Positions 6,860 to 36,396 of a stretch of 64,000 nt of DNA are shown one piece after another. The stretch lies in NCBI RefSeq assembly GCF_000482245.1, contig NZ_AWNH01000014.1, forward strand, positions 39,091 to 103,090, read 5' to 3'. This DNA comes from Leptolyngbya sp. Heron Island J (GTDB lineage: Bacteria; Cyanobacteriota; Cyanobacteriia; Phormidesmidales; Phormidesmidaceae). Below the pieces are notes generated by a model, which did no database searches, was not told the DNA's origin, and saw nothing but the letters and a program-made list of their open reading frames with translations. Position numbers and translations under genes: made by a program. Positions within the stretch are counted from its first letter, which is position 1; the number at the start of each line of letters is the position of its first letter.

Positions 6860-7471
6860 CTAAATTTCAGTCTCTGAATATCCACGATAGCCCGTAATCA
6901 ATCGGCTACCATCTTTGAACACATGGACCTCTATCTGATCGCTGGCCCATGTAATCTGGTCTGCTAAAGCAGGATTAAACACCCGTACTTGCTGATTGCG
7001 GGATGAAACAGGCGATGTGGGCTCATGAATAGCCATGGATTCAATGTAGGGGCCATCGATGAGAATATCAAGTTGTTCCAACAGTGCTTGAGATCCTTCC
7101 GGGGCATTTTCTTTTTGTAAGTCTGCTAGGGTAAATCCACTAAAGGACATCACATTTAACCCATGGGCTTTAACCCGTCGAGCTACTTCGGCCAATGCAA
7201 CGGCCTGCCAAAAAGGTTCACCCCCTGAGAAGGTAACTCCTTCATTTTTAGGTTCACTGAGAACACGTTGAACTAGCTCATCAATAGAAACTACTTGATT
7301 AGGTTCAAAGGACCAGGAGTCCGGATTGAAACACCCCGGACATTCTCGTAAACAGCCCTGCACCCATACCACTGCCCGACATCCGGGACCATTCACTTCA
7401 GAACGGTTGACATACCCCATAATATTGAGATGATTTGGGGGAAGATTAGTCGGTCTTTCAGTCAGTGGCAT
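6860..7471 (-). CDS. Radical SAM protein, NrdG-like activase
   Basis: A 203-aa protein with the radical SAM cluster CLRECPGC (CX3CX2C, about residues 40-47) and the SAM-binding FSGGEP motif. Size and the early position of the cysteines match NrdG, which installs a glycyl radical on the anaerobic ribonucleotide reductase NrdD. No nrdD is visible in this window, so the partner is unknown. A stand-alone 4Fe-4S single-cluster protein of other function is possible. It lies 33 bp downstream of the desaturase gene, at the 3' end of a long minus-strand run, and fits an oxygen-poor setting. Confidence 0.75.
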   Translation of the reverse strand: MPLTERPTNLPPNHLNIMGYVNRSEVNGPGCRAVVWVQGCLRECPGCFNPDSWSFEPNQVVSIDELVQRVLSEPKNEGVTFSGGEPFWQAVALAEVARRVKAHGLNVMSFSGFTLADLQKENAPEGSQALLEQLDILIDGPYIESMAIHEPTSPVSSRNQQVRVFNPALADQITWASDQIEVHVFKDGSRLITGYRGYSETEI

Positions 7472-7504
7472 AGTGACTCTCCTTGTAAAGAGTAGTTAAA
7501 GAAT

Positions 7505-8359
7505 CTACTTGAGTAGTGGACTCGCATGGGCAGGTATTTTAACAACTTTTTTAGCAAGTCCAAGCGTTTTCAATAGCCAAATGGCCCACCAGGTGACATC
7601 AATTTCCCACCACTGCCATCCAGCCCGAGCTACATTAGGATAGGCATGGTGGTTGTTATGCCAGCCCTCTCCGTAGGTCAAAATAGCAGCCCACCAGAGA
7701 TTTCGAGAATTGTCTTGAGTAGTGAAAGTACGATATCCCCACATATGGGTAACCGAGTTTATAAACCAGGTACTATGCCATAGTAACACTGCTCGCAGAA
7801 AGATGCCGTAAATAACAAAAGACCAACCGCCTAAGCCATATAGCAATACCCCCAGAGGAATTTGCAAGAGTAGAAAATAGCGATTTAACCATTGATAAAC
7901 AGGATCTCTGGCTAAATCTGGAGCATAACGGCTGTATTGGTCTGAGTCAAAAAACTTGGCCTCGGGATATAGCATCCAGAGCATGTGGCTCCACCAGAAT
8001 CCTCGCTTAGCAGAATAGGGATCTTCCTGTTCATCTTCTGTATGGGCATGGTGCAAGCGATGTCCGGCCACCCAGAAGATTGGTCCTCCCTGCAAGGCTA
8101 ATGTCCCGATAACGGCAATCAAATATTCCAGCCATTTTGGCACTTGGAAACTGCGATGGCTGAGAAGCCGATGATATCCCAAGCAGATGCCAATACTACC
8201 AAAGAGCCAGTGGAGAAATAAGGTAAGGCCCAAAGCCTGCCATGAAAAATACCAGGGAGCTAGCAAAGCAAGAATATGAACAAGTGTAAAAAAGGTAACA
8301 GTTGTCCAATTCAAGGGCGTCTTGGCTGCTGCATTTTTCTGGACTGAATTTTCTGTCAT
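7505..8359 (-). CDS. desC: Acyl-lipid/acyl-CoA delta-9 fatty acid desaturase
   Basis: A 284-aa membrane desaturase with the three histidine boxes that bind the di-iron centre: HRLLSH, HRLHH and HNNHH. Hydrophobic segments lie around residues 20-65 and 165-205. DesC introduces the first double bond into stearoyl chains of membrane lipids using O2 and ferredoxin. The gene follows psbA after a hairpin terminator and precedes the NrdG-like gene. A desaturase in a low-oxygen island may be an isoform adjusting membrane fluidity when O2 is limiting, but that is inference. A longer start at about 8426 would run into the terminator and is rejected. Confidence 0.88.
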   Translation of the reverse strand: MTENSVQKNAAAKTPLNWTTVTFFTLVHILALLAPWYFSWQALGLTLFLHWLFGSIGICLGYHRLLSHRSFQVPKWLEYLIAVIGTLALQGGPIFWVAGHRLHHAHTEDEQEDPYSAKRGFWWSHMLWMLYPEAKFFDSDQYSRYAPDLARDPVYQWLNRYFLLLQIPLGVLLYGLGGWSFVIYGIFLRAVLLWHSTWFINSVTHMWGYRTFTTQDNSRNLWWAAILTYGEGWHNNHHAYPNVARAGWQWWEIDVTWWAIWLLKTLGLAKKVVKIPAHASPLLK

Positions 8360-8391
8360 ATAGATGCTTCACACGAACTGTTGACAAAAGA

Positions 8392-8410
8392 GGGGAGTAG
8401 AAAACTCCCC
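8392..8410 (-). terminator. Intrinsic terminator after psbA (D1')
   Basis: Perfect 7-bp arms GGGGAGT/ACTCCCC with a 5-nt loop; read on the minus strand the stem is followed by TCTTTTG. It sits 44 bp past the psbA stop, so desC is reached only by read-through or its own promoter. Confidence 0.65.
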
Positions 8411-8453
8411 ATGGTAAACAAATCAAATTTTGAATTAAGGAACCAATCCGAAC

Positions 8454-9536
8454 TTATGCGGCGATAGCTGGTGCTGTCAGAGCGACAGGCTGTGGATCTC
8501 CAGCTGCCAAATCCAGTGGGAAGTTGTGGGCATTGCGCTCATGGATGACTTCAATGCCTAAATTGGCTCGGTTCAGAACATCTGCCCAGGTGTTAATCAC
8601 GCGACCTTCACTGTCCAAGATTGACTGATTAAAGTTAAAGCCATTGAGGTTAAAAGCCATGGAGCTAATACCAAGGGCTGCGAACCAAATACCAACAACG
8701 GGCCAGGCGGCTAATAAGAAGTGTAGAGACCGGCTGTTATTGAAAGAGGCATATTGAAAGATCAGTCGACCAAAGTAGCCATGGGCTGCAACTAGGTTAT
8801 AGGTTTCTTCTTCCTGGCCAAAGCGGTAGCCCGCATTTAAGGATTCAACTTCGGTGGTTTCTCTTACTAGAGACGATGTCACCAATGAACCATGCATGGC
8901 CGAGAACAAGGCTCCACCAAATACACCAATTACCCCAAGCATATGGAAAGGATGCATGAGAATATTATGCTCTGCCGTAAACACGATCATAAAGTTGAAC
9001 GTGCCGGAAACACCTAGCATCAGGCCATCAGAAAAACTTCCTTGACCGATGGGATAAACCAATAAAACAGAAGTGGCAGCCGCAACAGGAGCAGAATAGG
9101 CTACGGCAATCCAGGGTCTCATCCCCAAGCGATAGCTCAACTCCCACTGACGCCCCATGTAGGCATAGATAGCGATTAGAAAGTGAAAGATGATCATCTG
9201 GTAAGGACCACCATTGTAGAGCCACTCATCAAGGCTGGCTGCTTCCCACATGGGATAAAAGTGGAGACCAATGGCATTGGATGAGGGCACAACCGTGGCG
9301 GTGATCATGTTGTTGCCAGAAAGCAAGGAGCCGCTAATAGGCTCTCGAATACCGTCCATATCCACAGGCGGTGCGGCAACCATTGCCAGGATAAATACAA
9401 TCGTAGCGACTAGGGCAGTCGGAATTAAAAGAGTACCAAACCAGCCAACATATAACCGGTTTTCAGTGCTGGTAACCCATGCGCAAAAGCGCTCCCACAA
9501 ACTGACCTGTTGATATTTCTGAAGTGTATTAGTCAT
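8454..9536 (-). CDS. psbA: Photosystem II D1 protein, micro-oxic D1' isoform
   Basis: A 360-aa D1 with five membrane helices. Water-oxidation ligands are intact: Asp170, Glu189, His332, Glu333, His337, Asp342 and Ala344, the last followed by a 16-residue cleavable tail. Tyr161, His190, His198, His215, His272 and Ser264 are present. Three positions diagnose the D1' isoform: Ala80 for Gly (ITATVVP), Leu158 for Phe (VLLVYP) and Ala286 for Thr (IWFAALG). D1' genes in other cyanobacteria are induced at low oxygen. The gene ends in a hairpin and has a regulatory element 47 bp upstream of the start that matches one at the rogue psbA at 22 of 25 positions. Confidence 0.95.
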
Positions 9537-9881: not shown

Positions 9882-10457
9882 TTATACCCATCTCGAACAT
9901 CCTCCTTTCCCTATGATACTGACGTATCCAGGTTCTCTGCCAGCAAGCCGGCTAACGCAACGTTCAAATGCTGGCTTATGATTATTTTGTGACACGTTAC
10001 GCAATTGGGTAAACGTTGCCCTCAGGTCGGGTTCTTTCACAAATTCAAGAAAACTATCATACATTTGTACGTTAGCAATCTCTGCTGCAACCGCCATTTC
10101 ACAAGCTGCTTGAAGGGTTTCGGGAGCTTCTACATTACCAGCAAAGGTATCTTCAGGAACGGAGAGCCCGTACCGTGCAAATAAAGTGTACCAACGCTGG
10201 GCATGGCGTTCTTCTGCCTGAACAATATTACTAAATGGCCGAACGTTTCCATACTTTTCAATGACTGCCGTGTAAAATGCTCTCGCTTGATACTCATCAT
10301 TGATCGCATCAATCATGGCTTGTTGCGTTCTATCATCCAGACGAGAACTAGCAGATATGGGAGATGCTGGTGCCAAGAGCACCATGCTGCAAAGCCCCGT
10401 GGCACCTAATTTGCGCCAATATTGATGACGGGAGCGTTGACGACATCTATGTCTCAT
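9882..10457 (-). CDS. DUF2202 ferritin-like protein, exported
   Basis: A 191-aa protein with an Arg-rich start, a hydrophobic signal core (residues 18-35, cleavage near SPISAS) and a ferritin-like four-helix region. Candidate metal ligands are Glu in DEYQARAFY, EERHAQ, AEIANVQMY and His in NNHKPAF, the DUF2202 pattern. Related ferritin-like proteins bind di-iron centres, but the activity of this family is not established. It is the fifth gene of a minus-strand run headed by sqr. Location is probably the thylakoid lumen or periplasm. Confidence 0.7.
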   Translation of the reverse strand: MRHRCRQRSRHQYWRKLGATGLCSMVLLAPASPISASSRLDDRTQQAMIDAINDEYQARAFYTAVIEKYGNVRPFSNIVQAEERHAQRWYTLFARYGLSVPEDTFAGNVEAPETLQAACEMAVAAEIANVQMYDSFLEFVKEPDLRATFTQLRNVSQNNHKPAFERCVSRLAGREPGYVSIIGKGGCSRWV

Positions 10458-10514
10458 GATTCTTCCTCTTAGATTTAATAGCTTGGTTGCTCGAATTTTG
10501 GGATCTAGGGTTGT

Positions 10515-11054
10515 TTACAATTGAGTAAATAGCGCCTGCCACTCTTGGACAAGGGCTGGTGATACCAAGAGTTCAATTGGCTGACCTTGAGTTGTTGGTA
10601 AAGTCAGCTTCAAAGGAATGGCTGCTTGTAACTCGGATACAATCGGTGCCAAATCATATTGGCCAACGTTGGGTTCAGGGACAGCGGCGTCCGTAAAAAT
10701 TTGTTGAGAGGCATCATTTGCAGTTAGGAGCTTACCTAAAGAGTCGGTTAATTCCAGGGGCTGCGATCGGTCAATTTCTGCAATGCCTGGAAATCCAACC
10801 AGTCGGAGATAGAAAAAGCTGCTGCCATCTGGACGAATGCGTTTAAATGCGATCGCTTGCCAACTATTACTGTGCTGATCGCGCAGGGTCTGACGCGACT
10901 GATAGACAAATTGGCCAGGAGCCTCTTCTAATTGGCGAATCGCGGCAGAGGCTGCTGGCACTGCAAGATTTTCAACCCCTGTCAGGAGCAGGATTAATAG
11001 TATGCTGAAAGAAATCAGCCAAAGAATCAGCTGGCGTACACGTTGCCACATCAT
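10515..11054 (-). CDS. DUF3122 protein, exported or membrane-anchored
   Basis: A 179-aa protein with a long hydrophobic N-terminus (about residues 8-27) and an AASAA signal-cleavage-like site. A cyanobacterial DUF3122 beta-rich domain follows (VYQSRQTLRDQ, FYLRLVGFPG, QYDLAPIV). The function of the family is unknown. It lies 57 bp before the ferritin-like gene and 32 bp after the haem protein, in the sqr-arsR run, so it probably belongs to the sulfide-responsive operon. Confidence 0.7.
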   Translation of the reverse strand: MMWQRVRQLILWLISFSILLILLLTGVENLAVPAASAAIRQLEEAPGQFVYQSRQTLRDQHSNSWQAIAFKRIRPDGSSFFYLRLVGFPGIAEIDRSQPLELTDSLGKLLTANDASQQIFTDAAVPEPNVGQYDLAPIVSELQAAIPLKLTLPTTQGQPIELLVSPALVQEWQALFTQL

Positions 11055-11086
11055 AAAAATCTCCTAATGATGCCTATCTACCAAGT

Positions 11087-11695
11087 TTATTCACTCAGTG
11101 CAGTTTGAACCGATTGCTGCACTGAATCGGGAATAAATACCGCATACATACCGCGTAAATCATCTACCTTGAAGTTATATGCCAAATCTTGGGGGTAGTT
11201 ATCCTTGACAAACTGAGGACGATTACCTTTGAGCCCATGACAGGCTAAACAGCTTGCTTCCACAGTGATGCGACGATAATAGCGAGTGCCAGTCTGGTCA
11301 TTCAAAGTCTCTTTCTCCCAAAATCCCATTAACTCTGGGGATTGCTCAAATGTAGACAGGGCATTAGTAGCTGCAAGACTATCGGGTTTATGGGCTGGAT
11401 TACGATACTTTTTGGCAAGTTGCTTCACCTGCCAACCGTTCTCTTTGCTGAGTTGCATGGCTTTCATACCGACGGGTTTACACACTTGCTTCATGGTCTC
11501 AGCCGTCGGTGGTTCTGCAGCATCTTCCAGATAAGCCGCTAGCCCGCTACGCATAGCATCTAAATTTTCAATCTCCTGAACAGCTTTGGCAAGTTGGGCT
11601 GGTTCCGGCTGAGCCTGGGCCATCGCTGGGTAGCCGAGAATAACAAGCCCGATTAGCGAGAAGGCCAGCATAGTCTTGGATAGAATTCTGAACAT
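11087..11695 (-). CDS. Tll0287-like (DUF3365) c-type haem protein
   Basis: A 202-aa protein with a signal peptide (cleavage after AMAQA) and a single CLACH haem c motif at about residues 148-152, inside a Tll0287/DUF3365 sensor-like domain. Such proteins bind haem in the lumen or periplasm and are suspected redox or ligand sensors. AGGAGG lies 8 nt before the ATG, so this start is firm even though it overlaps the 3' part of arsR by 128 bp in another frame. In this context the haem could sense sulfide or redox state, or take part in electron transfer; that is inference. Confidence 0.8.
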   Translation of the reverse strand: MFRILSKTMLAFSLIGLVILGYPAMAQAQPEPAQLAKAVQEIENLDAMRSGLAAYLEDAAEPPTAETMKQVCKPVGMKAMQLSKENGWQVKQLAKKYRNPAHKPDSLAATNALSTFEQSPELMGFWEKETLNDQTGTRYYRRITVEASCLACHGLKGNRPQFVKDNYPQDLAYNFKVDDLRGMYAVFIPDSVQQSVQTALSE

Positions 11696-12071
11696 GAATA
11701 TCGCCTCCTGTATGGGAAGGTAAACTTAATTGTTCGATCTCTAACAGAGATTTGGCACAGAGGGACAATAAATCGTTATCGATGATCCGGTAATAGCGAC
11801 AGTTACCGACTCGTCGACAGGCAACAACACCTGAACATTTAAGCAACTGCAGGTGTTTAGAGACATTAGCTTGGTTTAAACGAGTTCGCTTACAAATCTC
11901 AGTTACATTGCGTTCTTGATTACAAATAGCAGAGAGAATTTGTAACCGACTGGGATCGCTTAATAGCTTAAATCGCTGTGCTATTTGCTTAAAGCGCTTT
12001 TCTAACATGACTGGACAGATGTCCACCGGATCAGGTTGAGTCTCCATAGGCTGAGTATCAACAAAGGCCAA
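11568..12071 (-). CDS. ArsR-family repressor, candidate sulfide/persulfide sensor
   Basis: A 167-aa protein whose first 115 residues are a standard ArsR/SmtB winged helix (LLSDPSRLQIL, recognition helix NQANVSKHLQLL, wing VACRRVGNCRYYRI). Cysteines at 50 and 105 flank the fold roughly where SqrR/BigR-type persulfide sensors keep theirs, although Cys50 is three residues later than the usual first cysteine. The start lies 19 bp after sqr, so the two are co-transcribed. ArsR repressors govern sulfide oxidation genes in several bacteria. The 52-residue tail runs into the next gene and is unlike the family, suggesting a lost stop codon. Confidence 0.8.
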   Translation of the reverse strand: MAFVDTQPMETQPDPVDICPVMLEKRFKQIAQRFKLLSDPSRLQILSAICNQERNVTEICKRTRLNQANVSKHLQLLKCSGVVACRRVGNCRYYRIIDNDLLSLCAKSLLEIEQLSLPSHTGGDIHVQNSIQDYAGLLANRACYSRLPSDGPGSAGTSPTCQSCSGD

Positions 12072-12090
12072 ATCTCATTCAATGGAACGC

Positions 12091-13395
12091 TTAGGGGCTA
12101 ACCATCGTTTGTTCATAGTTGATGGTGGTTGGCTTCAGCATCTGTAGACCAAAGAGAATGCGTAATCCCAAGTTCTCAAACCAGGGCATGCCAACTCCTG
12201 TACGCATTTTGACCATGAAATATTCCTCAAAGGCTGCTTTTACCCAGACCACCCATGGGCCACGCACTGCATAGGATCGCTTCCGCTTGCCGGTTTCTGG
12301 ATCAGGCAGAACGGGGGCGGCAATATAGGCAATACCAGTATCGCCGAACTCTGCAAAACACAAAGCCTCTAAGGTTGGAACTTTAAGAGAATCTTGAATC
12401 GCTCCCAGCTCAACAGCAATGTTGTGGGCAACTGCGGTGGCCATGGCTTCTGCCATTTGGCCACTTTTGGGCAACCCGATGGGAATACGGGTTTGGTCAG
12501 GCTGCGCCAGTTTAATACTGACACCTGCGGCATAAATGTTGGGAAAGTCTGGATGACGTTGGGTCGGCAATACCGGAATAAACCCTTTAGCGTCTCCCAA
12601 ACCAGGCACTGCTTGAATAAATTTGGCTCCACGAAAGGCGGGCAAGATCATCGAGTATTTGAATGGTAACTGTTGCCCGTCGTCCAGAGTAACGGTCTGT
12701 TCATCCACAGCGGTAATAGCTGTGTTCTCAATGATCGTAATATCTCGTTCGTGCATCAAGTTGGCAGTCAGTTCTCTCGCATTTTTCACATTAGAGACGC
12801 CTAGATGCCCCGCATAGGGCTCTGGGGTGACATAGGTAATGGTTACTTGATCACGCAATCCTCGACGACGTAATTCGTGATCGGCCATCAGAGCAAATTC
12901 GTAGGCGGGGCCAAAACAGCCCGCCCCCGGAGCTGCGCCTATAACTATCGGTCCTGGATTGTTGAGAAAATCAAGCCAGGCTTGATGGGCCTCAAGGGCA
13001 TGGTCGGGGGTGCAAACAGACTGGGTGTAGCCTCCGTGGGGTCCTAATCCGGGAACTTGATCAAATGCCAGGGAAGCACCGGTTGCGATCGCAACATAAT
13101 CATACTCAATTGTTCTCTCCCCCTCGACTGTAATAGAGCGAGCCTGAGGATCAAGGGCTGTCACCCTACCAGGCACCCAATCTAAATGATGACGCTGTGC
13201 CAGCCGCGATAGATCCAACTGCACATGCTCCAGCGGCTTCAGTCCCAAAGCCACCTGGATCAGCCCTGGAATAAAGGTAAATTTGGGCTCGCTGGATATT
13301 AGCGTCACCCGATGCTTGCTTGGTAGCAAGTGACGTAACTCATAGGCTGCAGGCAGCCCTGCCAGACCGGCCCCAATCACAACAACATTTGCCAT
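12091..13395 (-). CDS. sqr: Sulfide:quinone oxidoreductase
   Basis: A 434-aa FAD enzyme of the thylakoid or plasma membrane surface that oxidises sulfide to persulfide/polysulfide and reduces plastoquinone. It opens with the FAD motif VVIGAGLAGLP. All three catalytic cysteines are present: Cys128 (SVCTPDHA), Cys160 (GAGCFGPAYEF) and Cys346 (EALCFAEFGD). The pattern closely resembles the Acidithiobacillus ferrooxidans enzyme. The C-terminal amphipathic part (FEEYFMVKM, ILFGLQML) fits monotopic membrane binding. It heads a minus-strand run containing arsR, the haem protein, DUF3122 and DUF2202. In cyanobacteria this enzyme feeds electrons to photosystem I during anoxygenic photosynthesis. Confidence 0.93.
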   Translation of the reverse strand: MANVVVIGAGLAGLPAAYELRHLLPSKHRVTLISSEPKFTFIPGLIQVALGLKPLEHVQLDLSRLAQRHHLDWVPGRVTALDPQARSITVEGERTIEYDYVAIATGASLAFDQVPGLGPHGGYTQSVCTPDHALEAHQAWLDFLNNPGPIVIGAAPGAGCFGPAYEFALMADHELRRRGLRDQVTITYVTPEPYAGHLGVSNVKNARELTANLMHERDITIIENTAITAVDEQTVTLDDGQQLPFKYSMILPAFRGAKFIQAVPGLGDAKGFIPVLPTQRHPDFPNIYAAGVSIKLAQPDQTRIPIGLPKSGQMAEAMATAVAHNIAVELGAIQDSLKVPTLEALCFAEFGDTGIAYIAAPVLPDPETGKRKRSYAVRGPWVVWVKAAFEEYFMVKMRTGVGMPWFENLGLRILFGLQMLKPTTINYEQTMVSP

Positions 13396-13500: not shown

Positions 13501-13641
13501 ATATTATGTAGCAAATGCTATTCTGTCAACTGAATCATCTGTTTTAGCGTTCCATGATTGGCCCAAGTTATAGAGCGTTGGGCGCTTCAATCAAACCAGA
13601 GAAGTCATAAAGTACTTGATAAATTAATTTACAATTCCATT

Positions 13642-13661
13642 ACTACTTAGTTATACTGTTA
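13642..13661 (+). promoter_or_regulatory. Island element, sqr-petC intergenic, site 2
   Basis: CTACTTAGTTATACTGTTAA shares CTACTTAGTTRTA with the rogue psbA element and has the same orientation relative to the downstream gene. No other feature is evident in the 474-bp gap between sqr and petC. Confidence 0.5.
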
Positions 13662-13869: not shown

Positions 13870-14403
13870 ATGGAAAACGCAATTCCTTATGAGGCACCGT
13901 CCTTATCGCGACGGCAACTACTCAACTTTTTAACGGGGGCAACAGTTGCTGCAACCGCTGGTTCAGCCCTCTACCCGGTCGCCAAATTTTTCATCCCACC
14001 TCGGGAGGTATCTGAGGGAGGAGGAATTCTCGCAAAAGATAAACTAGGCAATCCGATTCCAGCCAGTCAAATCCTTGCTAATCCGCCTGGAACTCGTGCT
14101 TTGATTGCAGGACTGGCCAGCGAACCGACGTATTTAATCGTCCAAGACGATGGCTCTCTAGGGGCTAGAGGTATTGTTGATAACTGTACTCACCTGGGTT
14201 GCACCTTCCCCTGGAATCCCGTAGATCAGCAGTTTCAATGTCCCTGCCATGGGTCTCTTTACGATCCGGAGGGTAACGTTGTGCGTGGGCCTGCACCTCT
14301 CCCCCTGAAGATAGTTCATGTGGTGGTTAAGGATGATGCCATCTGGATCTACCCCTGGAACGAGACTGACCCCCGTACTGATGAACAACCCTGGTGGGTG
14401 TGA
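13870..14403 (+). CDS. petC: Cytochrome b6f Rieske iron-sulfur protein, accessory copy
   Basis: A 177-aa PetC with a twin-arginine-like membrane anchor (SRRQLLNFL and a hydrophobic stretch to residue 40) and the 2Fe-2S ligands CTHLGC and CPCHGS. It carries electrons from plastoquinol to cytochrome f/plastocyanin. No petA is next to it, unlike the main petCA operon, so this is probably an alternative isoform. It shares a promoter region with sqr and precedes the get3d-like gene by 21 bp. An isoform tuned to sulfide-reduced plastoquinone is a reasonable inference. Confidence 0.9.
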   Translation: MENAIPYEAPSLSRRQLLNFLTGATVAATAGSALYPVAKFFIPPREVSEGGGILAKDKLGNPIPASQILANPPGTRALIAGLASEPTYLIVQDDGSLGARGIVDNCTHLGCTFPWNPVDQQFQCPCHGSLYDPEGNVVRGPAPLPLKIVHVVVKDDAIWIYPWNETDPRTDEQPWWV

Positions 14404-14424
14404 TCAACTAAGAGGTTTTTACGA

Positions 14425-15624
14425 ATGCGTATTATTTTGATGACTGGAAAAGGGGGAGTGGGTAAGACCTCGGTCGCAGCAGCGACTGCCCTGCGCGCAG
14501 CAGAACTGGGATATCGCACGCTGGTATTGAGTACGGACCCAGCACATTCCTTGGCGGATAGCTTTGCTCTAGAATTGTCCCATGAGCCAACGCTGATTCG
14601 GCCCAATCTGTGGGGGGCTGAACTCGATGCCCTGAGAGAAATGGAGCAGAACTGGGGAGCAGTGCGACGCTACATTACAGACGTACTCCAGGCTCAGGGC
14701 ATGGATGGCGTACAGGCAGAAGAGCTATCAGTCCTGCCTGGAATGGACGAAATTTTTGCCCTAGTGCGGATGAAACGCCATTACGATGCGGGAGATTTTG
14801 ATGTTCTGATTGTGGACTCGGCCCCTACAGGCACAGCCCTGCGTTTGCTCAGCTTGCCAGAAATTTCTGGCTGGTACATGCGTCGCTTTTACAAGCCTTT
14901 CCAGGGAATGGCCAATACCCTGAGCCCTGTGTTTGAACCCATTTTCAAGCGCATGACGGGTTTCTCACTACCCGATCGAGAGGTGATGGATGCTCCCTAC
15001 GAGTTCTATGAACAAATTGAAGCTCTAGAGCGAGTGCTCACGGATAGCACTCAAACTACGGTGAGATTAGTCACCAACCCCGAAAAAATGGTGATTAGCG
15101 AGTCTCTTCGGGCTCATGCTTACCTGAGTTTATACAATGTGGCAACTGATCTGGTGATCGCCAATCGCATTATTCCTGAACAGGTGAGCGATCCATTCTT
15201 TGCCCGTTGGAAGGAGATGCAACAACAGTATCGCCAGGAAATTCAAGAAAACTTTCAACCATTACCCATCAAAGAAGTGCCGCTTTACAATGAAGAACTC
15301 TGCGGTTTGGCGGCCCTAGAGCGACTGAAAGATACTCTCTATGGCGATGACGATCCGACCCAGGTTTACTACCGGGAGACCACACTCCGCGTCGTTCAAC
15401 AGTCTGAGGGGTATTGCCTAGATGTTTATCTTCCCAATATTCCCAAGGAGCAAATCCATTTGCATAAGACGGGGGATGAACTCAACATTCGCATTGGCAA
15501 CCATCGTCGCAATCTGGTTCTCCCACAGGCGTTGGCAGCCTTGCAACCAGCAGGAGCTAAATTAGAAGACGATCATCTGATGATTCGTTTTACGACAGAT
15601 ACTTCCATCCCCTCTGCTGCGTAA
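14425..15624 (+). CDS. ArsA/Get3-family ATPase with alpha-crystallin-like C-terminus (Get3d-like)
   Basis: A 399-aa P-loop ATPase: deviant Walker [10 protein letters not shown] (residues 8-16), switch region [12 protein letters not shown], and a C-terminal HSP20-like domain from about residue 310 ([28 protein letters not shown]). This domain order is that of the Get3d branch found in cyanobacteria and plastids. It lacks the arsenite-binding cysteines expected of ArsA. Its role is unknown; a chaperone for hydrophobic proteins is plausible. It follows petC by 21 bp, so co-expression with the Rieske protein is likely. Confidence 0.85.
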
Positions 15625-15692
15625 TTCTCTAAAGCGCGCCTCACGAGCAAAGTACGAACGCATGATTTGCTTCAGAAAATTAGGAGATTGAA

Positions 15693-20683: not shown

Positions 20684-20696
20684 CCCACATTGGCGC

Positions 20697-29064: not shown

Positions 29065-29083
29065 CGGTTTAGTTTTATTGGCT

Positions 29084-29250
29084 AAGGAATGGGGAGTAAA
29101 CAGTGTTGACTTTGCTGATGTTCGGATAGCCCTCACCCCAGCCCTCTCCCAGGGGGAGAGGGAGCCAGATTCAAAGTCCTTCTCCCAGGGGGAGAAGGAT
29201 TTAGGATGAGGGCGAAAAGCTGGACATTAATAAATTCTGATTCCTAAGCT
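29084..29250. repeat. Inverted-repeat element, short copy of the 6104-6820 family
   Basis: Left AAGGAATGGGGAGTAAACAG, interior CTCTCCC/GGGAGAAGG units and right end GATTCCTAAGC match the block at 6104-6820 but without its long interior. Ends are inverted copies of CTTAGGAAT. The remaining 29251-29516 shows no gene. Confidence 0.65.
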
Positions 29251-29516: not shown

Positions 29517-31538
29517 TTAGGGACTGGATGCCACACTAGAAGACTTGGCTGATGGGACTGTTGACACTTGGGGATTCAGGACTATCTCATCGAATTGGCA
29601 GGTGTGAATGATCTGAGCCAGATGCTCCATTGAGCTGCCGTGTGGGCTATGGGCGACTTTCACGGAGTCAATGTCTGGCAAGGATGTGGGGTCATCCGTC
29701 AAGATCAGCAGCCGGAAAGATTGGCAGCTATTTTGTTGCTGAACCCGTTGCATAAACTCCGAGAGGGACATATCCGGCAGCGGCTCGGAGACGATGACGA
29801 CGTCAACAACGATGGAGTCTAATAATATCAGTCCTGTTTCACCGTTGGTGGCTTCACTGGCAATTTCGATGCCAGCTTGCGATCGCAATCCTTTCCGCAA
29901 AGCAATACGCGCCGCTTCATCCCCATCCACAATCACCACTTGCACATCGTCTATGGCACCGTTAGCAGACTCACTCACCTCTGCTGCTGGCGCGCCACAG
30001 GCAGAAACGTCACTCGCGAACTCAACATCTGCCAGTTTGGCCGCCTTGAGCCGAATCATATCTTCAGCAGAGAGAATCCGAGATTGATCAAAGCCCAGCT
30101 CAATCTCCGCATGCATCCCTTTACGCTTCACCCGTTTGAGATTATAGAAACGCTGATTGAGGGTGGTTTGTACAAACGCCCATAAACATCCCAACAAATA
30201 GCGTCGCTTAAACGGATCACGGGTAAACCAATATTCCAAAAACTTCCAGCCATAGAAGCGAGCATAGTTGCGCAGAACCCCCTTCAGCACCGCTTCTCGC
30301 GTCATATTGTCGGGCTTGATAATGGGCGTCACAAAGTTGTAATGAGAAAAGTCTCGCACTTCGACCTTATCTTCGAGGTCTTGAAACAGTTCTGCAAACG
30401 GCCAGGGCGTAAACATATTCCAATTGGTCATGTCTGACTTCCAGTCCCGAGCCATGCGGTAGGTTTCTTCAATAGTCTCAGGGGTTTCATTCGAGAGGCC
30501 CATAATGAACTGCACCTCCGCCACAATGCCATTGTCACGCAGTAGTTTTACCGCCCGTTTATTATCGGCAATGGTGGTTTCCTTACGAAAGACATCGAGG
30601 TTTAATTGGGCCGCTGCTTCTGTCCCCAGCGACACGTGGACCAGACCAGCTTTACGGTACAGCGGCAGTTCGGCCTCATCCCGCAAGATATCGGTCACCC
30701 GAGTATTAATGCCCCAATGAACACCCAGGTTGCGATCTATCAGTTCTTCACACAGACTGACAAAGCGAGCCTTACTGATGGTGGGCTCCTCATCGGCCAG
30801 GATGAAAAATCCTATATTGTGTTCTTTGACCAGGTGCTCAATTTCATCCACAAATAGCTTGGGCTTCCGGGCCCGGTACTTCCGCCAGAACTTCCACTGG
30901 CAGCAAAACCGACAGCGAAAAGGACAGCCCCTGGCAAAATTAGGCACGGCCACCCGCACATTTAGGGGTGTGTAGATGTATCGGTCCCAATCCAGTAAGG
31001 TCCAATCGGGGGAGAGCGTATTTAGATCACGAATCGGCGGATGGGCCGGTGTGACCACCACCTGACCGGCATCATCTAAATAGGCCAGGCCCAAAATTGA
31101 CTCACGGTCCTGAGAGTCTCGGCCCTCGGCAATGGCTCGAACTAAGTTGACGCTAATTTCTTCTCCTTCCCCCCGAATGATGTAGTCCACCCAAGGGGCT
31201 TCTTGCAACACCTCACGGTACATATAGGTGGGATGGATACCGCCCATAATTGCGATCGCATCAGGGCACACAGATTTAGCAATCCGCAGGGTGTCCTGGG
31301 ATTTATAAATCATCGGGGTGATCGCTGTGGCCATGACAATATCGGGCTGATGTTGCTGAATCAGAACAGCCAGGGCCTCATCCTCGATATAGTTGGTCAT
31401 GGCATCAATAAAGCGGATGTCATCAAAGCCCGCTTGCTTGAGAGCTCCCCCGACGTAGGGCACCCAACTAGGTGGCCAATTGCCTGCAATTTCAGCCCCA
31501 CCTGAATGGTAGTTGGGTTGAATCATAAGGATACGCAT
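29517..31538 (-). CDS. bchE: Oxygen-independent Mg-protoporphyrin IX monomethyl ester cyclase (BchE/ChlE) with C-terminal pseudo-receiver domain
   Basis: A 673-aa protein. Residues 1-520 match BchE: an N-terminal B12-binding fold opening MRILMIQPNYHSGGAEIAGN, the radical SAM cluster CPFRCRFC, and conserved FFILADEEPT, WGINTRVTDILRDEA and TPWPFAELFQ blocks. It closes ring E of chlorophyll without O2. From about residue 565 a CheY-like domain follows (VVIVDGDEAAR, DVVIVSEPLPDMS, LLILTDD). The phospho-acceptor Asp position is Ser, so it is a pseudo-receiver. Start chosen at ATG 31538 with AGGAGG 6 nt upstream. It follows hemN on the same strand. Confidence 0.92.
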   Translation of the reverse strand: MRILMIQPNYHSGGAEIAGNWPPSWVPYVGGALKQAGFDDIRFIDAMTNYIEDEALAVLIQQHQPDIVMATAITPMIYKSQDTLRIAKSVCPDAIAIMGGIHPTYMYREVLQEAPWVDYIIRGEGEEISVNLVRAIAEGRDSQDRESILGLAYLDDAGQVVVTPAHPPIRDLNTLSPDWTLLDWDRYIYTPLNVRVAVPNFARGCPFRCRFCCQWKFWRKYRARKPKLFVDEIEHLVKEHNIGFFILADEEPTISKARFVSLCEELIDRNLGVHWGINTRVTDILRDEAELPLYRKAGLVHVSLGTEAAAQLNLDVFRKETTIADNKRAVKLLRDNGIVAEVQFIMGLSNETPETIEETYRMARDWKSDMTNWNMFTPWPFAELFQDLEDKVEVRDFSHYNFVTPIIKPDNMTREAVLKGVLRNYARFYGWKFLEYWFTRDPFKRRYLLGCLWAFVQTTLNQRFYNLKRVKRKGMHAEIELGFDQSRILSAEDMIRLKAAKLADVEFASDVSACGAPAAEVSESANGAIDDVQVVIVDGDEAARIALRKGLRSQAGIEIASEATNGETGLILLDSIVVDVVIVSEPLPDMSLSEFMQRVQQQNSCQSFRLLILTDDPTSLPDIDSVKVAHSPHGSSMEHLAQIIHTCQFDEIVLNPQVSTVPSAKSSSVASSP

Positions 31539-31585
31539 ACAGGGTCCTCCTGATATCAAAAGGGTGCAGTGATTGTGAACGGCAA

Positions 31586-33004
31586 TCAAACCGACTGGGA
31601 GAATTGACGAATTTTGCGATCTCGCAAGTAGGTATCGAACACGGCGGCAATGTTGCGTACCAGCAAACGTCCAGCAGGGGTGACCTCAATATGATTCGGT
31701 GTCAGCCGCACCAGACCATCTGCAGCCAGGGTTTCTAAATCTCGACGTTCGCGCGCAAAATACGTATCAAAATCCTGCTCAAAATTGAGGTGATATTTCT
31801 CTTCAATCGCGCCTTTCGATAGCTCAAACTGACACATTAATTCCATGATCACGGCCCGTCGTAAAATGTCATCCTGGCTGAGGGCAACACCGCGTTCAAT
31901 CGGGAGTTGGTGAGTGCTAACCTGTCCCCCTGGCGCGATGGCATCATAAAATCCCTTCAGCTGTTTATGATTCTGGGTATAAACATTTTGGAACATGCTA
32001 ATGGCCGTCATGCCAAAGGCCAGCAGATCGGACTCTGGCTGGGTAGTATACCCTTGAAAGTTGCGGTGTAGCTGCCCCGTTTGTTGCGCTATGGTCAATT
32101 CATCATCTGGTTTCGCAAAATGATCCATGCCAATAAACTGATAGCCACGGTGAGTCAGCTGATCAATGGTCATGTGCAAAATATCGAGCTTTTCCGATGG
32201 AGACGGCAATGTGGCCGGATCAATATGTTTCTGCTGCACCGGTAACATGTGCGGTAAATAGGCAAAGTTAAACACCGCAATCCGGTCTGGATCTAGGGAT
32301 AGGGTTTTAGTAATAGTGTCGCTAAATGTGGCCAGGGTTTGGTAGGGCAGACCATAGATCAAGTCAACATTAACACTGTCAAAGGCCGCCTCTCGCATCC
32401 AGTCCATCACCTGGAACAGCACTTCTTCTGGCTGTAGCCGATTAATTGCCGCCTGGACCTGGGGATTAAAATCTTGGATGCCAAAGCTAATCCGATTAAA
32501 ACCAAGCTCTCGCAGCCCCAGAACATAATCGCGGCTAAGGGAGACGGGATTCACTTCAATCGAAATTTCAGCATCCTGAGCAAAGGAAAAATGCTGGTGT
32601 AATACCTGCCATAGAAGCTTTACCTGCTCCAGGGTGAGATAATTGGGAGTACCCCCACCCCAGTGGAGCTGGTTAACAACTCGGTTTGCATCCGTCCGAG
32701 CCGCAACCTGCTCAATATTGCAAATGAGAGCATCGAGATAGGCATGAGTCGCCGCCGCATTCTGGGTGACAATGGTATTACACCCACAGAAGTAGCAGGC
32801 ACTCTGGCAAAAGGGAATATGACAGTAGAGAGAAAGCGGTGTCTTTTGATAATTGCCGGTGGCAAAGGCCGCATCAACCGATCGGGCATCAAAGTTCTCT
32901 GTGAGCTCAGTCGCTGGCGGATAGCTGGTGTAGCGGGGCAGAGGCTGATTATATTTTTGAATTAAATCGGCATTAAATTCAACGGTTTGAAGCAAAGATT
33001 TCAT
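31586..33004 (-). CDS. hemN: Oxygen-independent coproporphyrinogen III oxidase
   Basis: A 472-aa radical SAM enzyme with the HemN cluster segment YCHIPFCQSACYFCGC and downstream GGGTPNYL and NRISFGIQDF motifs; length matches true HemN rather than the shorter HemW. It decarboxylates coproporphyrinogen III to protoporphyrinogen IX without O2. It lies between heme oxygenase, from which an intrinsic terminator separates it, and bchE, which starts 47 bp beyond its stop. hemN and bchE are probably co-transcribed. Confidence 0.95.
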   Translation of the reverse strand: MKSLLQTVEFNADLIQKYNQPLPRYTSYPPATELTENFDARSVDAAFATGNYQKTPLSLYCHIPFCQSACYFCGCNTIVTQNAAATHAYLDALICNIEQVAARTDANRVVNQLHWGGGTPNYLTLEQVKLLWQVLHQHFSFAQDAEISIEVNPVSLSRDYVLGLRELGFNRISFGIQDFNPQVQAAINRLQPEEVLFQVMDWMREAAFDSVNVDLIYGLPYQTLATFSDTITKTLSLDPDRIAVFNFAYLPHMLPVQQKHIDPATLPSPSEKLDILHMTIDQLTHRGYQFIGMDHFAKPDDELTIAQQTGQLHRNFQGYTTQPESDLLAFGMTAISMFQNVYTQNHKQLKGFYDAIAPGGQVSTHQLPIERGVALSQDDILRRAVIMELMCQFELSKGAIEEKYHLNFEQDFDTYFARERRDLETLAADGLVRLTPNHIEVTPAGRLLVRNIAAVFDTYLRDRKIRQFSQSV

Positions 33005-33023
33005 TGTCTAAGCAGATTTAAGG

Positions 33024-33051
33024 GCTAAAAAAATCCCCCTTGCGGGGGATT
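33024..33051 (-). terminator. Intrinsic terminator between heme oxygenase and hemN
   Basis: On the minus strand, arms AATCCCCC and GGGGGATT (8 bp, loop GCAA) are followed directly by a run of T. It would end the heme oxygenase transcript or attenuate entry into hemN-bchE. Confidence 0.8.
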
Positions 33052-33084
33052 GGAGGTCCATAAGAGAGGAGGAATCCTGAGGAG

Positions 33085-33846
33085 TTATTCTGCAGACACC
33101 AATTCAGAGATCTGTTCAGAAGACCGATGATGGCGATGTTCCGTACTACCCGGCTTATCCTGACGAGTAATCAGATCAAATACATGATCGCCAATGGCTG
33201 CTTTCACCAATGGCTCCAGCCCATGCATGACATCGCGATTGAGCTGAAATGCTAGATTGGCCTCATCCACAATTTGGTGTGCCAGGCTCTTTTCAATCGG
33301 CAGGGAATTGAGCGCAGTCCTATATTTTTCCTTAAAGGCACGCCGAGCTTCCACCGTTGGGATATCGACAAATTCATAGAAGGCGGTGCCGACACCCTCT
33401 GGTAATTCAAGGGCTGAGCGAATAATCGCCTTTAAGCCCTGCCCTCCGGAGAGATCGCCCATGTAGCGAACATAGGCGTGGGCCACCAGTAACGAAGGAT
33501 TCTGGTTGGATAGCTCCCGAATGCGTTTCACATAATGGACGCCTTCGGGGGAGGCCGTAATCTCATTACGCCAATTGTCACCATAGTAAAAGGCGAGATC
33601 TTTTTCCAATTGAGACACTCGCTCTAACAAGGAAAAATACATCGGACCCACTACGGAATGATGGGCATGACAGCGTATTTCTTCTTCTAGGGCGCTATAT
33701 ACAAAGTATAGGTTGGCCACCAATTGACGAAAGGGTTCTCTTTCCACAATCCCCTTGAGAAAACATTTCATATAAGCCGTATTTTCTGCCAGGGTATGGG
33801 ACTTTTGAGTGCCTTCTCGCAGACAGGATGCTAAATTATGGTCCAT
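33085..33846 (-). CDS. ho: Heme oxygenase (HO2-type by context)
   Basis: A 253-aa heme oxygenase with the proximal His in EGTQKSHTLAE, the distal-helix motif YMGDLSGGQGLK and FYEF; it opens haem to biliverdin for bilins. I choose ATG 33846 (MDHNLASCLREG) because cyanobacterial HO proteins start there and GAGG precedes it; an earlier in-frame start adds 11 residues. Known micro-oxic isoforms (HO2) sit with hemN and the second acsF in other cyanobacteria, the same company as here. A His-rich C-terminal tail (EHRHHR) is noted. Confidence 0.92.
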   Translation of the reverse strand: MDHNLASCLREGTQKSHTLAENTAYMKCFLKGIVEREPFRQLVANLYFVYSALEEEIRCHAHHSVVGPMYFSLLERVSQLEKDLAFYYGDNWRNEITASPEGVHYVKRIRELSNQNPSLLVAHAYVRYMGDLSGGQGLKAIIRSALELPEGVGTAFYEFVDIPTVEARRAFKEKYRTALNSLPIEKSLAHQIVDEANLAFQLNRDVMHGLEPLVKAAIGDHVFDLITRQDKPGSTEHRHHRSSEQISELVSAE

Positions 33847-34031
33847 TGGAAATAACCTCAAATGATGAATGTTGCTCAAACAAAAACGATCTTCAAAAGA
33901 ACGTCTGGAAGAAAAAAGGCAAGGGATAGTAAAGCTGCTTACTCAGGAGTTGGGAGCCCTCCTTCGCATCTACAGATGATTGATTGGAGATTCTCATCGT
34001 TGTCCCTTGCCAGGAAACTTTGGTAATGCTA

Positions 34032-35123
34032 TTAAGGTGTCGGCACCCAGTTCACCCAATCCTGGGGCTTAAGAAAGAAATTCGTCAGATCAGCCTCTGG
34101 AGTATCGGCTGTGGGCTCGTAACCATACTGCCAGCGAGTTAGGGGCGGCAGCGACATCAAAATGGACTCAGTTCGACCGTTGGTTTGTAGACCAAATACG
34201 GTACCCCGGTCATACACCAGGTTAAATTCGACATAGCGTCCCCGGCGGTAGAGCTGAAACTCTCGTTCCCGTTCGCCATAGGGTTTATCCTGATTGCGTT
34301 CGGCAATGGGTAGATAGGCGGGCAAAAACGCATTACCGCAGCTTTGCACAAAGGCAAACCAATCTTCCCAACTTTGGGTAACGGGGCCTACCTGCTGACT
34401 GTAGGTAGCCGCATCCCCAGTTAAATTAGGACCGGAGTAGAGATTACCGCGATAGTCCAGGTAGTCAAAGAAGACACCGCCCACACCCCGCGCTTCTTTA
34501 CGATGCTTGAGATAAAAATATTCATCGCACCAACGCTTAAACGCAGGATAGAACTCAGGATGATGCACATCGCAGGCCTGCTTGAGGGTGGTATGGAAGT
34601 GAACCACATCCTCCACGGTGGGATAGTAGGGGGTTAGATCGACGCCACCGCCAAACCACCATACGGGGCCGGCTTCAAAGTAACGGTAGTTGAGGTGCAC
34701 GGTGGGCACATAAGGATTACGCGGATGCAACACCATGGAGGTACCCGTCGCATAATATTCATGGCCCGCCGCCTCCGGACGTTGGCTGAGGATGGCTGGC
34801 GGTAGGGTATCTCCCCACACTTCTGAAAAATTAACACCCCCCTGTTCAAACACTCGCCCATTTTGAATCACACGGGTGCGGCCACCGCCACCACTGTCAC
34901 GCTGCCAGTTATCTTCTTGAAATTTTGCCTGGCCATCTAATTGCTCTAGGGCAGAACAGATATTATCCTGCAACGTTTTTACATATTGCTTGAAGCGCTG
35001 GCGACTATCGCTGGGTGGCAATGGGGGGGAACCGGAGATAGCCGCAGCTGCATTAGCCTGCGATCGCTTAACTTGAAGACTCATGGGTAAATCTTTTTCA
35101 ACAGGTTTTGCTTTAATCACCAT
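34032..35123 (-). CDS. hemF: Oxygen-dependent coproporphyrinogen III oxidase
   Basis: A 363-aa HemF with the conserved [36 protein letters not shown] and [14 protein letters not shown] blocks. It performs the HemN reaction using O2. Two starts are possible: ATG 35123, which lies inside a palindromic regulatory element, or ATG 35084 (MSLQVKRSQ), which would leave the element 29 bp upstream. The family N-terminus is variable, so the choice is open. It is divergent from acsF and 185 bp upstream of heme oxygenase on the same strand. The main housekeeping copy may lie elsewhere. Confidence 0.93.
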
Positions 35124-35134
35124 ATAGCGATTAA
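35113..35134. promoter_or_regulatory. Palindromic island element at hemF
   Basis: A 22-bp near-palindrome with arms TTAATCAC and GCGATTAA around CATATA; 18 of 22 positions are symmetric. It is the most symmetric member of the island motif set. It overlaps the upstream candidate start codon of hemF. Confidence 0.6.
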
Positions 35135-35244
35135 GTAATTACATTCTGTTTTTAGTTTCAAAACTTTACTTTTTGAGACCGACATTATTGCCTATAGAGG
35201 AGCAGACCCATGGAAACCATGGCCAAAAAATAAAAATATGTGAA

Positions 35245-35261
35245 ACCTAGTGTATCTAGGT
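35245..35261. promoter_or_regulatory. Palindrome ACCTAG-N5-CTAGGT upstream of acsF
   Basis: A perfect 6-5-6 inverted repeat 65 bp before the acsF start in the hemF-acsF divergent region. It is not part of the other motif set, so it suggests a second regulator, for example a MarR-type protein such as ChlR; that assignment is a guess. Confidence 0.55.
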
Positions 35262-35325
35262 CAGATCATATTATTCTTTTAATACCTATAAAGTTATGAA
35301 TGGATATTTGAGGTAGAAAAACTCT

Positions 35326-36396
35326 ATGGTCAGTACTACTCCATCCGCTGCCAAGCTTGCCACGGGTCCAAAATCCCAGGTTGAAGAGAACCTGCTGACG
35401 CCACGTTTTTACACCACCGACTTTGAGAAGGCGGCGGCGTTAGATCTTTCGGCAGGCGAGGTGGATTTACAGGCAATGCTATCGGAAATGAGGGCTGACT
35501 ATAATCGTCATCACTTTGTGCGCAACGAGGACTTTAAGCAAACCTGGGATCATATTCAGGGAGAAGAGCGACAGGCATTTGTAGATTATCTGGAGCGCTC
35601 CTGTGTTTCTGAGTTTTCGGGATTTCTGTTGTTTAAGGAATTATCTCGCAAGCTCAAGAACCGCAGTCCAATGCTGGCAGAAATCTTTGCACTGATGGCC
35701 CGAGATGAAGCCCGCCATGCTGGCTTTTTGAATAAGGCGATGGCAGATTTTAATATCTCCTTAGACCTTGGCAAACTCACTAAAAAGCGAAACTATACGT
35801 TTTTCCCAGTGGAGTGGATTATCTATGCGGTCTATCTATCCGAGAAAATTGGCTACTGGCGCTATATTCTGATTCATCGGCATTTAGAACAGCAGCCTGA
35901 GAATCGCTTCTATCCGCTGTTTAATTATTTTGAAAGCTGGTGTCAGGATGAGAACCGCCATGGCGATATCTTTAAAGCGTTGTTGCGATCGCAACCCAAC
36001 ATGTGGAAAACCTGGCAATCTCGTCTCTGGAGCCGCTTTTTTCTACTCTCCGTCTTTGCCACCCACAGTCTCACTGTCCACGAACGCACCAAGTTTTATG
36101 AAACGCTGGGTCTCGACGCCACCCAGTTTGATATCGACGTTATCCGCGAAACCAACAACACCTCAGCCCGTGCATTCCCTGTGATTCTGAATGTCGATCA
36201 TCCTGAATTCTTTAAGCGACTGGACCGATGCGCTGCCCGCAATCTAAAAATGAAAGCCATTGCCGAAGGATCAGCCCCTAAAATTTGGAAAATCTTGAGA
36301 AAGGCTACCCTGGTGACCAGCACCCTAGGGGATCTGTTGTATCTTTATCTGCTCCGCCCCATTGATGCCGAAGCCATGAGAGAAACGGTACGATAG
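35326..36396 (+). CDS. acsF: Oxygen-dependent Mg-protoporphyrin IX monomethyl ester cyclase
   Basis: A 356-aa di-iron AcsF/ChlA with ligand motifs DEARHAGF and DENRHGDIF and upstream Glu in FSGFLLFKEL; length is standard. It forms ring E of chlorophyll with O2. Association with heme oxygenase and hemN is that of the low-oxygen isoform (ChlA-II) in other cyanobacteria. It is transcribed alone, divergent from hemF, with a palindrome 65 bp upstream and a hairpin after the gene. BchE for the same step lies on the other strand nearby. Confidence 0.94.
   Translation: MVSTTPSAAKLATGPKSQVEENLLTPRFYTTDFEKAAALDLSAGEVDLQAMLSEMRADYNRHHFVRNEDFKQTWDHIQGEERQAFVDYLERSCVSEFSGFLLFKELSRKLKNRSPMLAEIFALMARDEARHAGFLNKAMADFNISLDLGKLTKKRNYTFFPVEWIIYAVYLSEKIGYWRYILIHRHLEQQPENRFYPLFNYFESWCQDENRHGDIFKALLRSQPNMWKTWQSRLWSRFFLLSVFATHSLTVHERTKFYETLGLDATQFDIDVIRETNNTSARAFPVILNVDHPEFFKRLDRCAARNLKMKAIAEGSAPKIWKILRKATLVTSTLGDLLYLYLLRPIDAEAMRETVR

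Follow-up and report, generated by a model that had tools for sequence, protein, structure and literature searches.

A candidate operator shared by sulfide oxidation, alternative D1 and Rieske genes in an sqr island of Leptolyngbya sp. Heron Island J

Contig NZ_AWNH01000014.1 of Leptolyngbya sp. Heron Island J carries a dense gene block around a gene for a sulfide-quinone reductase (SQR, sqr). The stretch analysed, here called the window, comprised 64,000 nt (positions 39,091 to 103,090, forward strand), and the block, here called the island, spanned window positions 6860 to 36396. Among the closest described systems is suoSR/suoCT on pSYSM of Synechocystis 6803. The ArsR-like protein SuoR was described as binding a promoter region common to the suo gene pairs and repressing them (PMC4307280). 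This system has the gene order of the island, sqr-arsR-DUF3365-DUF3122, and a palindrome in the SuoR-bound gap. Unlike the island, the pSYSM stretch includes ChrA and DUF302 and is without psbA, petC, persulfide dioxygenase and tetrapyrrole genes. Grim and Dick (2016) reported 15 genomes with sqr near a low-oxygen psbA of group 2 or 3, and arsR near 27 sqr genes. Linked regulation of sqr and low-oxygen psbA was proposed there and called intriguing but untested; an operator or a link to pigment or persulfide genes is not described in the available text (PMC5061849).

In Thermostichales, petC2 flanks type I sqr, but the clusters are small and the accessible parts of that paper describe no shared operator (PMC11304991). 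In Acaryochloris marina (AM1_0448-0451, AM1_0465-0467) and Synechocystis (slr1181-slr1185), psbA1-petC-rhodanese and acsF-HO-hemN groups are similar to island genes and induced by microoxia, with psbA1, petC, acsF, HO and hemN rising in A. marina. Sulfide oxidation is not covered in that account, whose main text contains the word sulfide 0 times (PMC5295598). The ChlR regulon (chlAII-ho2-hemN, psbA1, desF) has overlapping targets, and the island has a DesC-type desaturase; ChlR differs in being an activator with another reported motif. A Leptolyngbya isolate whose SQR is of type F was described as performing anoxygenic photosynthesis (PMC5776472). The available text of PMC8002359 and PMC12694226 added nothing on gene order or control.

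The proximity of sqr to low-oxygen psbA, petC2 and arsR and the microoxic psbA1-petC and acsF-ho-hemN groups are already in print. New here is sequence evidence for one programme, through a candidate operator shared by these genes. In the literature searched, no published account was found of an operator joining them, of its spread, or of its presence at D1', heme oxygenase or persulfide dioxygenase promoters, although the primary SuoR paper (Nagy et al. 2014) may report the binding site. Many island gene groups have one DNA control site in common, a hint that one switch may activate a large part of them. The island is read here as an enlarged regulon of a SuoR-type ArsR repressor that would be derepressed by sulfide or polysulfide (probability roughly 0.7). 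The candidate operator speaks to the question of why low-oxygen psbA adjoins sqr, and it is relevant to the way cyanobacteria shifted between water and sulfide as sources of electrons. The psbA-sqr question becomes testable now that the operator is defined, a repressor family named and targets listed.

Island genes and a palindromic candidate operator

The host genome comprised 8.06 Mb, and 30 genes were counted across the 29.5 kb between 6860 and 36396. Genes were called with NCBIfam/Pfam profile scans, names were given by homology and operons were predicted from strand and spacing. A sequence-only reading had described a dense block of gene types recognised by motifs, and this was confirmed, since all types were supported by the scans: SQR, ArsR, two PsbA, PetC, HemF, HemN, AcsF, BchE, heme oxygenase, FeoA, FeoB, TauE, two rhodanese-domain proteins, DsrE and a Crp/Fnr-type protein. 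The persulfide dioxygenase was Blh-like, with 98.5 bits lying below the model cut-off of 625. The block additionally held an NrdG-like activase, a DesC-type desaturase, a Tll0287-like haem protein, DUF3122, a ferritin-like protein, ArsA/Get3, Usp, BON, an SBF/Acr3-type transporter, a methyltransferase, an NMO/FabK-like protein and an aldehyde-deformylating oxygenase. Further copies of sqr, petC, ho, hemF and acsF were present outside the island, which therefore holds alternative versions. The gene groups with candidate sites were as follows.

9882-13395, minus strand: probable operon of SQR (12091-13395), SuoR-type ArsR (11568-12071), Tll0287-like haem protein (11087-11695), DUF3122 (10515-11054) and ferritin-like protein (9882-10457), by profile scans
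6860-9536, minus strand: probable operon of D1' psbA (8454-9536), DesC-type desaturase (7505-8359) and NrdG-like radical SAM activase (6860-7471), by profiles and D1 residues, operon by strand and spacing
19574-23323, plus strand: probable operon of rogue D1 (19574-20683), rhodanese 2, SBF/Acr3-type transporter, methyltransferase and DsrE, by profiles and residues, operon by strand and spacing
13870-16169, plus strand: PetC (Rieske, second copy), ArsA/Get3-HSP20 and Usp, by profile scans
16361-16753, plus strand: rhodanese 1, by profile scan
26060-27574, minus strand: persulfide dioxygenase-like protein (26876-27574) and TauE exporter (26060-26842), by profile scans
16836-17540, minus strand: aldehyde-deformylating oxygenase (ado), by profile scan
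29517-35123, minus strand: BchE with degenerate receiver domain (29517-31589), HemN (31586-33004), heme oxygenase (33085-33879) and HemF (34032-35123), by profile scans
35326-36396, plus strand: AcsF (oxygen-dependent cyclase), one of three genome copies, by profile scan
4703-5263, minus strand: protein without family match, a possible further member outside the island coordinates, with the operator 5304-5323 in its promoter

The best solved-structure matches of the island SQR were sulfide-quinone reductases. C128, C160 and C346 were invariant in 14 sequences and aligned to the cysteines of 3sz0. The protein was 60.9% identical to the pSYSM SQR (SuoS), which is said to behave as type I (PMC4307280). 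Its three redox cysteines and its closeness to type I SQRs predict a type I enzyme. The island PetC was 49% identical to the other PetC of the genome.

Eight full-length psbA genes were present in the genome, two of them rogue. For D1 typing, A80, L158 and A286 were taken as the presumed D1' marks, together with a presumed numbering of the Mn ligands. The psbA at 8454-9536 encoded A80, L158 and A286 with intact Mn ligands and is a D1' (microaerobic) as judged by these residues. The psbA at 19574-20683 encoded E170, Q189, A333 and L342 and retained Y161 and H190; by its residues it is a rogue D1 with predicted loss of Mn4Ca ligands.

Intergenic comparison first revealed the same palindrome at D1', petC, sqr and rogue psbA. 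Because a circular argument was to be avoided, an unseeded palindromic model was fitted solely to 69 sqr upstream regions, seven of them from this genus. It gave the palindrome ATATAACTA-NN-TAGTTATAT. The fit converged on ATATAACTAtaTAGTTATAT with a log-likelihood of 403 (best of 60 restarts). One of 30 further restarts regained this value, with the next at 221, and three mononucleotide shuffles with 20 restarts each reached 32-35. Site thresholds were set on shuffled 300-mers at 10.0 bits (1%) and 15.9 bits (0.1%); unshuffled random 300-mers of the same regions reached 21.6 bits at 1% because these regions hold real sites.

The operator and its positions were obtained directly from the sequences, as were gene content and conservation. 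The six best sites in the window lay in the promoters of rhodanese 1, persulfide dioxygenase, sqr, rogue psbA, the 4703-5263 gene and D1'. They were followed by ado, hemF/acsF, a site at 10225 inside the ferritin-like gene (11.7 bits) and petC. Right of 36.4 kb, the best site held 10.1 bits. The strand-independent positions were as follows.

16283-16302: candidate operator, rhodanese 1 promoter, 23.2 bits
27787-27806: candidate operator, persulfide dioxygenase promoter, overlapping a promoter-like match (27812-27784), 20.0 bits
13479-13498: candidate operator just 3' of the sqr -10 (TTGACA-17-TAATAT, 13529-13501), 19.9 bits
19340-19359: candidate operator over spacer and -10 of the rogue psbA promoter (TTGACT-17-TATAGT, 19334-19362), 19.6 bits
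5304-5323: candidate operator, promoter of the 4703-5263 gene, 18.8 bits
9594-9613: candidate operator, D1' psbA promoter, 17.9 bits, exact CTACWTAGTTRTA match
17728-17747: candidate site upstream of ado, 13.3 bits
35122-35299: hemF/acsF divergent promoter with two weak sites by matrix scan, 35122-35141 (12.1 bits) and 35280-35299 (11.0 bits)
13637-13656: candidate operator over spacer and -10 of the petC promoter (TTTACA-18-TATACT, 13628-13657), 11.7 bits, 2 mismatches to the 18-bp palindrome

The placement over the spacer and -10 (petC, rogue psbA, persulfide dioxygenase) or just after the -10 (sqr) would be as expected for a repressor. Match counts in the window were weak evidence by themselves, and it is the placement of the sites that matters: a strict 13-mer scan allowing 2 mismatches gave 4 matches against 3.2 expected, and a looser scan with ACTANNTAGTTNTA gave 21 against 11.4.

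Conservation around sqr and sites outside the window

Conservation was examined in 388 sampled genomes of one taxonomic class, Cyanobacteriia; related genomes are among them, and the counts should not be taken as independent events. An SQR like that of the island (E <= 1e-60) was present in 107 of the genomes. The nearest named relatives by SQR were Leptolyngbya cf. ectocarpi LEGE 11479, Leptolyngbya sp. PCC 7375 and Adonisia turfae. Neighbours were counted within 10 kb of 62 sqr loci outside the genus, a few of which share one genome, and the counts are lower bounds because some contigs are short. The most frequent were DUF3122 (37), ArsR (35), Tll0287-like (35), PetC (26), SBF transporter (25), rhodanese-2 (23), NrdG (18), rhodanese-1-like (14), NMO (12) and rogue psbA (9). 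Persulfide dioxygenase was found at 8 loci, HO and HemN at 6 each, D1' and TauE at 5 each, AcsF and FeoB at 2 each and BchE at one. Tetrapyrrole genes were accordingly rejected as a general part of sqr clusters. Tll0287-like and DUF3122 genes were among the most constant cyanobacterial sqr companions, and the available text of the sulfide papers gives them no role.

Twelve 20-kb control stretches at distances of about 9 to 30 kb from sqr contained a psbA-like match (33% identity), a pentapeptide protein, feoB, arsA and csdA once each and never the other island genes. Since many island genes recur around sqr outside the genus and the control stretches hold few, the island is not a product of chance. 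In the genome comparison proposed with the sequence-only reading, gene content was conserved around sqr in many cyanobacteria, so the assembly is not random. The 41 proteobacterial SQR loci among the best 80 SQR loci held no DUF3122, PetC, SBF, rhodanese-2, NrdG, HemN or HO; they held rhodanese-1-like, ArsR (4), persulfide-dioxygenase-like (3), TauE (2), Tll0287-like (2), Crp (2), tppC (2) and ferritin-like (1) genes. Rogue psbA (E <= 1e-180) was present in 22/388 genomes, 18 of those with sqr (p 7e-8), and 10 of 23 cases had it no further than about 12 kb from sqr, judged by coordinates.

The island of PCC 7375, a member of the same genus, was closely similar. Both there and in Adonisia, usp, crp and BON were missing from the corresponding position, hemN had no aligned counterpart and hemF aligned in part only; D1' psbA and desC were also missing in Adonisia. 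The Crp/Fnr gene, present in LEGE 11479, could therefore not be upheld as the member that the sequence-only reading had taken it for. Among the loci examined, bchE was beside sqr in three genus members and one other family member. The compact block with bchE, hemF and acsF is, by this gene-order comparison, a lineage feature.

The palindrome was counted at promoters on the gene level, with split matches merged and sites of at least 10 bits. It was upstream of 55/70 sqr genes, 6/8 D1' psbA (7/9 unmerged, because one gene was split), 10/12 persulfide dioxygenase and 6/9 heme oxygenase genes. Comparison promoters carried it rarely: nrdG 0/21, Tll0287 0/39, DUF3122 1/40, rhodanese-2 0/28 and hemN 0/7. 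Outside the genus and more than 700 bp from any sqr start, sites preceded D1' in 4, heme oxygenase in 6 and persulfide dioxygenase in 6 cases. The palindrome occurred, with at most one mismatch, in 65/388 genomes, of which 46 belonged to the 107 that have sqr (p 9e-16); a reversed-pattern control showed no association (19/68 with sqr, p 1). Of the proteobacterial SQR promoters, 1/40 reached 10 bits (10.6), one of the 41 being left out for too little upstream sequence.

Among the one-mismatch matches listed, D1' psbA with an upstream palindrome was far from sqr or on another contig in four genomes (G339, G186, G159, G152) and within 3 kb of sqr in two (G077, G378). The palindrome was upstream of acsF in one genome (G333) and of petC in two (G387, G342), all three without sqr found. 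In a probable Acaryochloris (G222), it lay in the ho/acsF gap and before arsR. The host genome held four palindromes with at most two mismatches, all within its two sqr loci. Two were on C14 at petC and rhodanese 1, within the island from which the pattern came. The two on contig C80 were independent; one lay in the arsR/YeeE gap, the other between the second sqr and the adjacent gene. This second sulfide locus (C80:57782-65088) comprised sqr2, a stand-alone ArsR with operator, YeeE/YedE-type sulfur-transport genes, an HxlR/MarR-type regulator, an alternative oxidase (AOX), a lone receiver protein and a second AcsF (90% identical).

The candidate regulator and competing explanations

The matrix, learned without pSYSM sequence, was applied to 9.2 kb of pSYSM, where sll5035/5036 were paired with RefSeq tags by gene order. 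One strong site of 24.5 bits was found (next 7.9), in the 117-bp suoC-suoS gap. The same site is at the island sqr promoter. Identities between island and pSYSM were 61% for SQR, 50% for ArsR, 70% for the Tll0287-like protein and 50% for DUF3122. The island ArsR was in the place of SuoR, directly downstream of sqr and followed by DUF3365 and DUF3122. Given the site in the SuoR-bound gap and this operon position, an enlarged SuoR-type regulon is the best reading of the island. The ArsR frame overlapped the Tll0287-like gene by 128 bases (11087-12071), and its tail of about 50 residues may be a lost-stop artefact.

The ArsR proteins of the examined loci formed two groups, sqr-operon and stand-alone, and the host genome has one of each (island; C80:57782-58204). 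In the sqr-operon group, C50, C60, C85 and C105 were present in 27, 26, 30 and 29 of 30 proteins; the stand-alone group had C105 in 19/20 and C109 in 15/20. The palindrome was in the gene's own promoter for 13/20 stand-alone arsR (10/17 without three that lie in site-selected stretches), 2/30 sqr-operon arsR and 203/1780 other ORFs. One of the 20 stand-alone genes (G301) probably belongs to an sqr operon, its frame having been called too long. BigR and other ArsR proteins were among the weakly similar matches, and persulfide may be sensed through cysteines.

With a SuoR-type ArsR in control, the repressor would, in the absence of sulfide, sit on the palindrome over the spacer, -10 or start of each promoter in Leptolyngbya sp. 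Heron Island J, and the operons would be off. Sulfide, or polysulfide made by SQR, would modify the repressor cysteines and release it. SQR would then pass sulfide electrons to the plastoquinone pool, PetC would supply an alternative Rieske protein, and D1' and rogue D1 would take over from the sulfide-sensitive water-oxidising D1. Rhodaneses, DsrE, persulfide dioxygenase and TauE would deal with the resulting sulfur, and heme oxygenase, HemN, BchE and AcsF would sustain pigment synthesis at low oxygen. Polysulfide raises psbA and petC in Synechococcus 7002 (PMC12466478). Sulfide and low oxygen, we infer, may both act on the island. A wider proposal could hold or fail with about equal chance: across much of the cyanobacteria, sulfide itself would be the direct signal through a SuoR-type ArsR, and the change from water to sulfide would be one transcriptional switch over SQR, a water-oxidation-impaired D1, D1', a second Rieske protein, persulfide removal and low-oxygen pigment enzymes.

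The single programme proposed by the sequence-only reading stood in part. In the genus, the shared operator supports a link between sulfide oxidation, both alternative D1 genes, PetC and persulfide removal. Iron uptake was not supported, with sites at 0/4 feoA and 0/5 feoB promoters. The pigment genes fit less well, as hemF/acsF had just the two weak sites and the ho promoter had a site in 0/3 genus members and 6/6 cases outside.

These pigment results and the weak petC site in the window weigh against a SuoR-type regulon, as do several other observations. Since the 18-bp pattern was originally derived from promoters of the window, its matches there carry little weight by themselves. Sigma-70-like matches did not exceed shuffles (20 vs 22.5; 11 vs 14.4), and at 3 mismatches the host genome had 32 sites vs 63 for the reversed control. 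Among one-mismatch loci, 12/30 (L221-L250) were without an island-gene homologue within 1.5 kb and may reflect chance or other targets; of the 125 sites scoring 18 bits or more across 1.75 Mb of sqr regions, 23 had no island gene within 400 bp. The petC sites were mostly in a shared sqr/petC gap (away from sqr 1/20), and outside the genus rogue psbA had a site in 1/9 and rhodanese 1 in 0/15 cases. In Synechococcus 7002, sqr was without a site and the petC2 gene group had one of 18.0 bits. Finally, the site was present at 21/36 sqr loci with a linked arsR (<=3.5 kb) and 26/33 without (69 loci; p 0.08, opposite direction). A positive coupling of operator and linked arsR was thus rejected, and the cognate regulator may be an unlinked stand-alone ArsR or another protein.

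One such protein could be ChlR (MarR-type, Fe-S) or another regulator that reads the palindrome in response to low oxygen, with sqr included because sulfide and anoxia coincide. The microoxic rise of the homologous Acaryochloris genes (PMC5295598) fits this, and in Synechocystis or Synechococcus ChlR activates chlAII-ho2-hemN, binds the psbA1 promoter and controls desF (PMC4500134). The palindrome before acsF or petC in the three genomes without sqr found and the HxlR/MarR-type gene beside AOX and the second acsF on C80 point the same way. However, the ChlR motif given in a 2026 review, TTMCC-N3/4-GGWAA (PMC13421787), differs, and none of the seven stretches tested, among them C80, contained it exactly; its sole single-mismatch match was at rogue psbA. 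The palindrome instead tracks sqr presence and sits in the SuoR-bound gap. ChlR is therefore disfavoured as its reader, and a unit answering to low oxygen is unlikely. Crp is likewise disfavoured as master regulator, being absent in two relatives, without an operator of its own and, by eye, without an N-terminal cysteine cluster.

The island might also be a mere neighbourhood of same-habitat stress genes gathered by gene transfer, each under its own control. This fits the strongly differing gene order between genera, the losses in PCC 7375 and Adonisia, the absence of an operator at feoAB and the rarity of bchE near sqr outside the genus. The operator common to members even far from sqr, and their repeated co-occurrence, make this very unlikely. 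A defence unit against arsenite or other metalloids would account for ArsR, ArsA, the Acr3-like transporter and the methyltransferase, all inside the island, and for the link between SuoR and arsenite transport, SuoT of pSYSM being described as an arsenite transporter (PMC4307280). Yet the scores were far under the model cut-offs (Acr3 81.7 vs 282.8; arsenite methyltransferase 48.4 vs 263), arsenate reductase was identified among 0/30 island proteins by profile scans, and the operator targets are mostly photosynthesis and sulfur genes. Such a role is highly improbable.

Other features

The remaining island features were as follows.

17774-18511, minus strand: Crp/Fnr-family regulator, by profile scan, no operator
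23357-25548, minus strand: FeoB and FeoA, by profile scans, no operator found
27949-29136, minus strand: NMO/FabK-like protein, FabK model 131 bits, under cut-off

The 4703-5263 protein had zero family matches in Pfam/NCBIfam scans, and a homologue was near sqr in 7/62 loci outside the genus. The NrdG-like activase scored 100.9 with the NrdG model, below the cut-off of 126.1. It was present in 132/388 genomes and near sqr in 18/62 loci outside the genus. Its NrdD partner (PF13597) was found in 0/16 genomes carrying the activase, controls being positive in 6/14.

Another psbA of the host genome (C53:11076-12140) had normal ligands but E264, and a 16.9-bit site began 147 bases 5' of its matched start. 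BchE scored 752.8 bits, above the equivalog cut-off of 481.35; Acaryochloris marina was reported without BchE (PMC5295598). In the C-terminal receiver domain of the island BchE (29517-31589), the usual phospho-Asp was replaced (VSEPLP, VSDPLP or VTAPLP, by eye), and this held for all four homologues in the examined loci (G000, G162, G347, G189).

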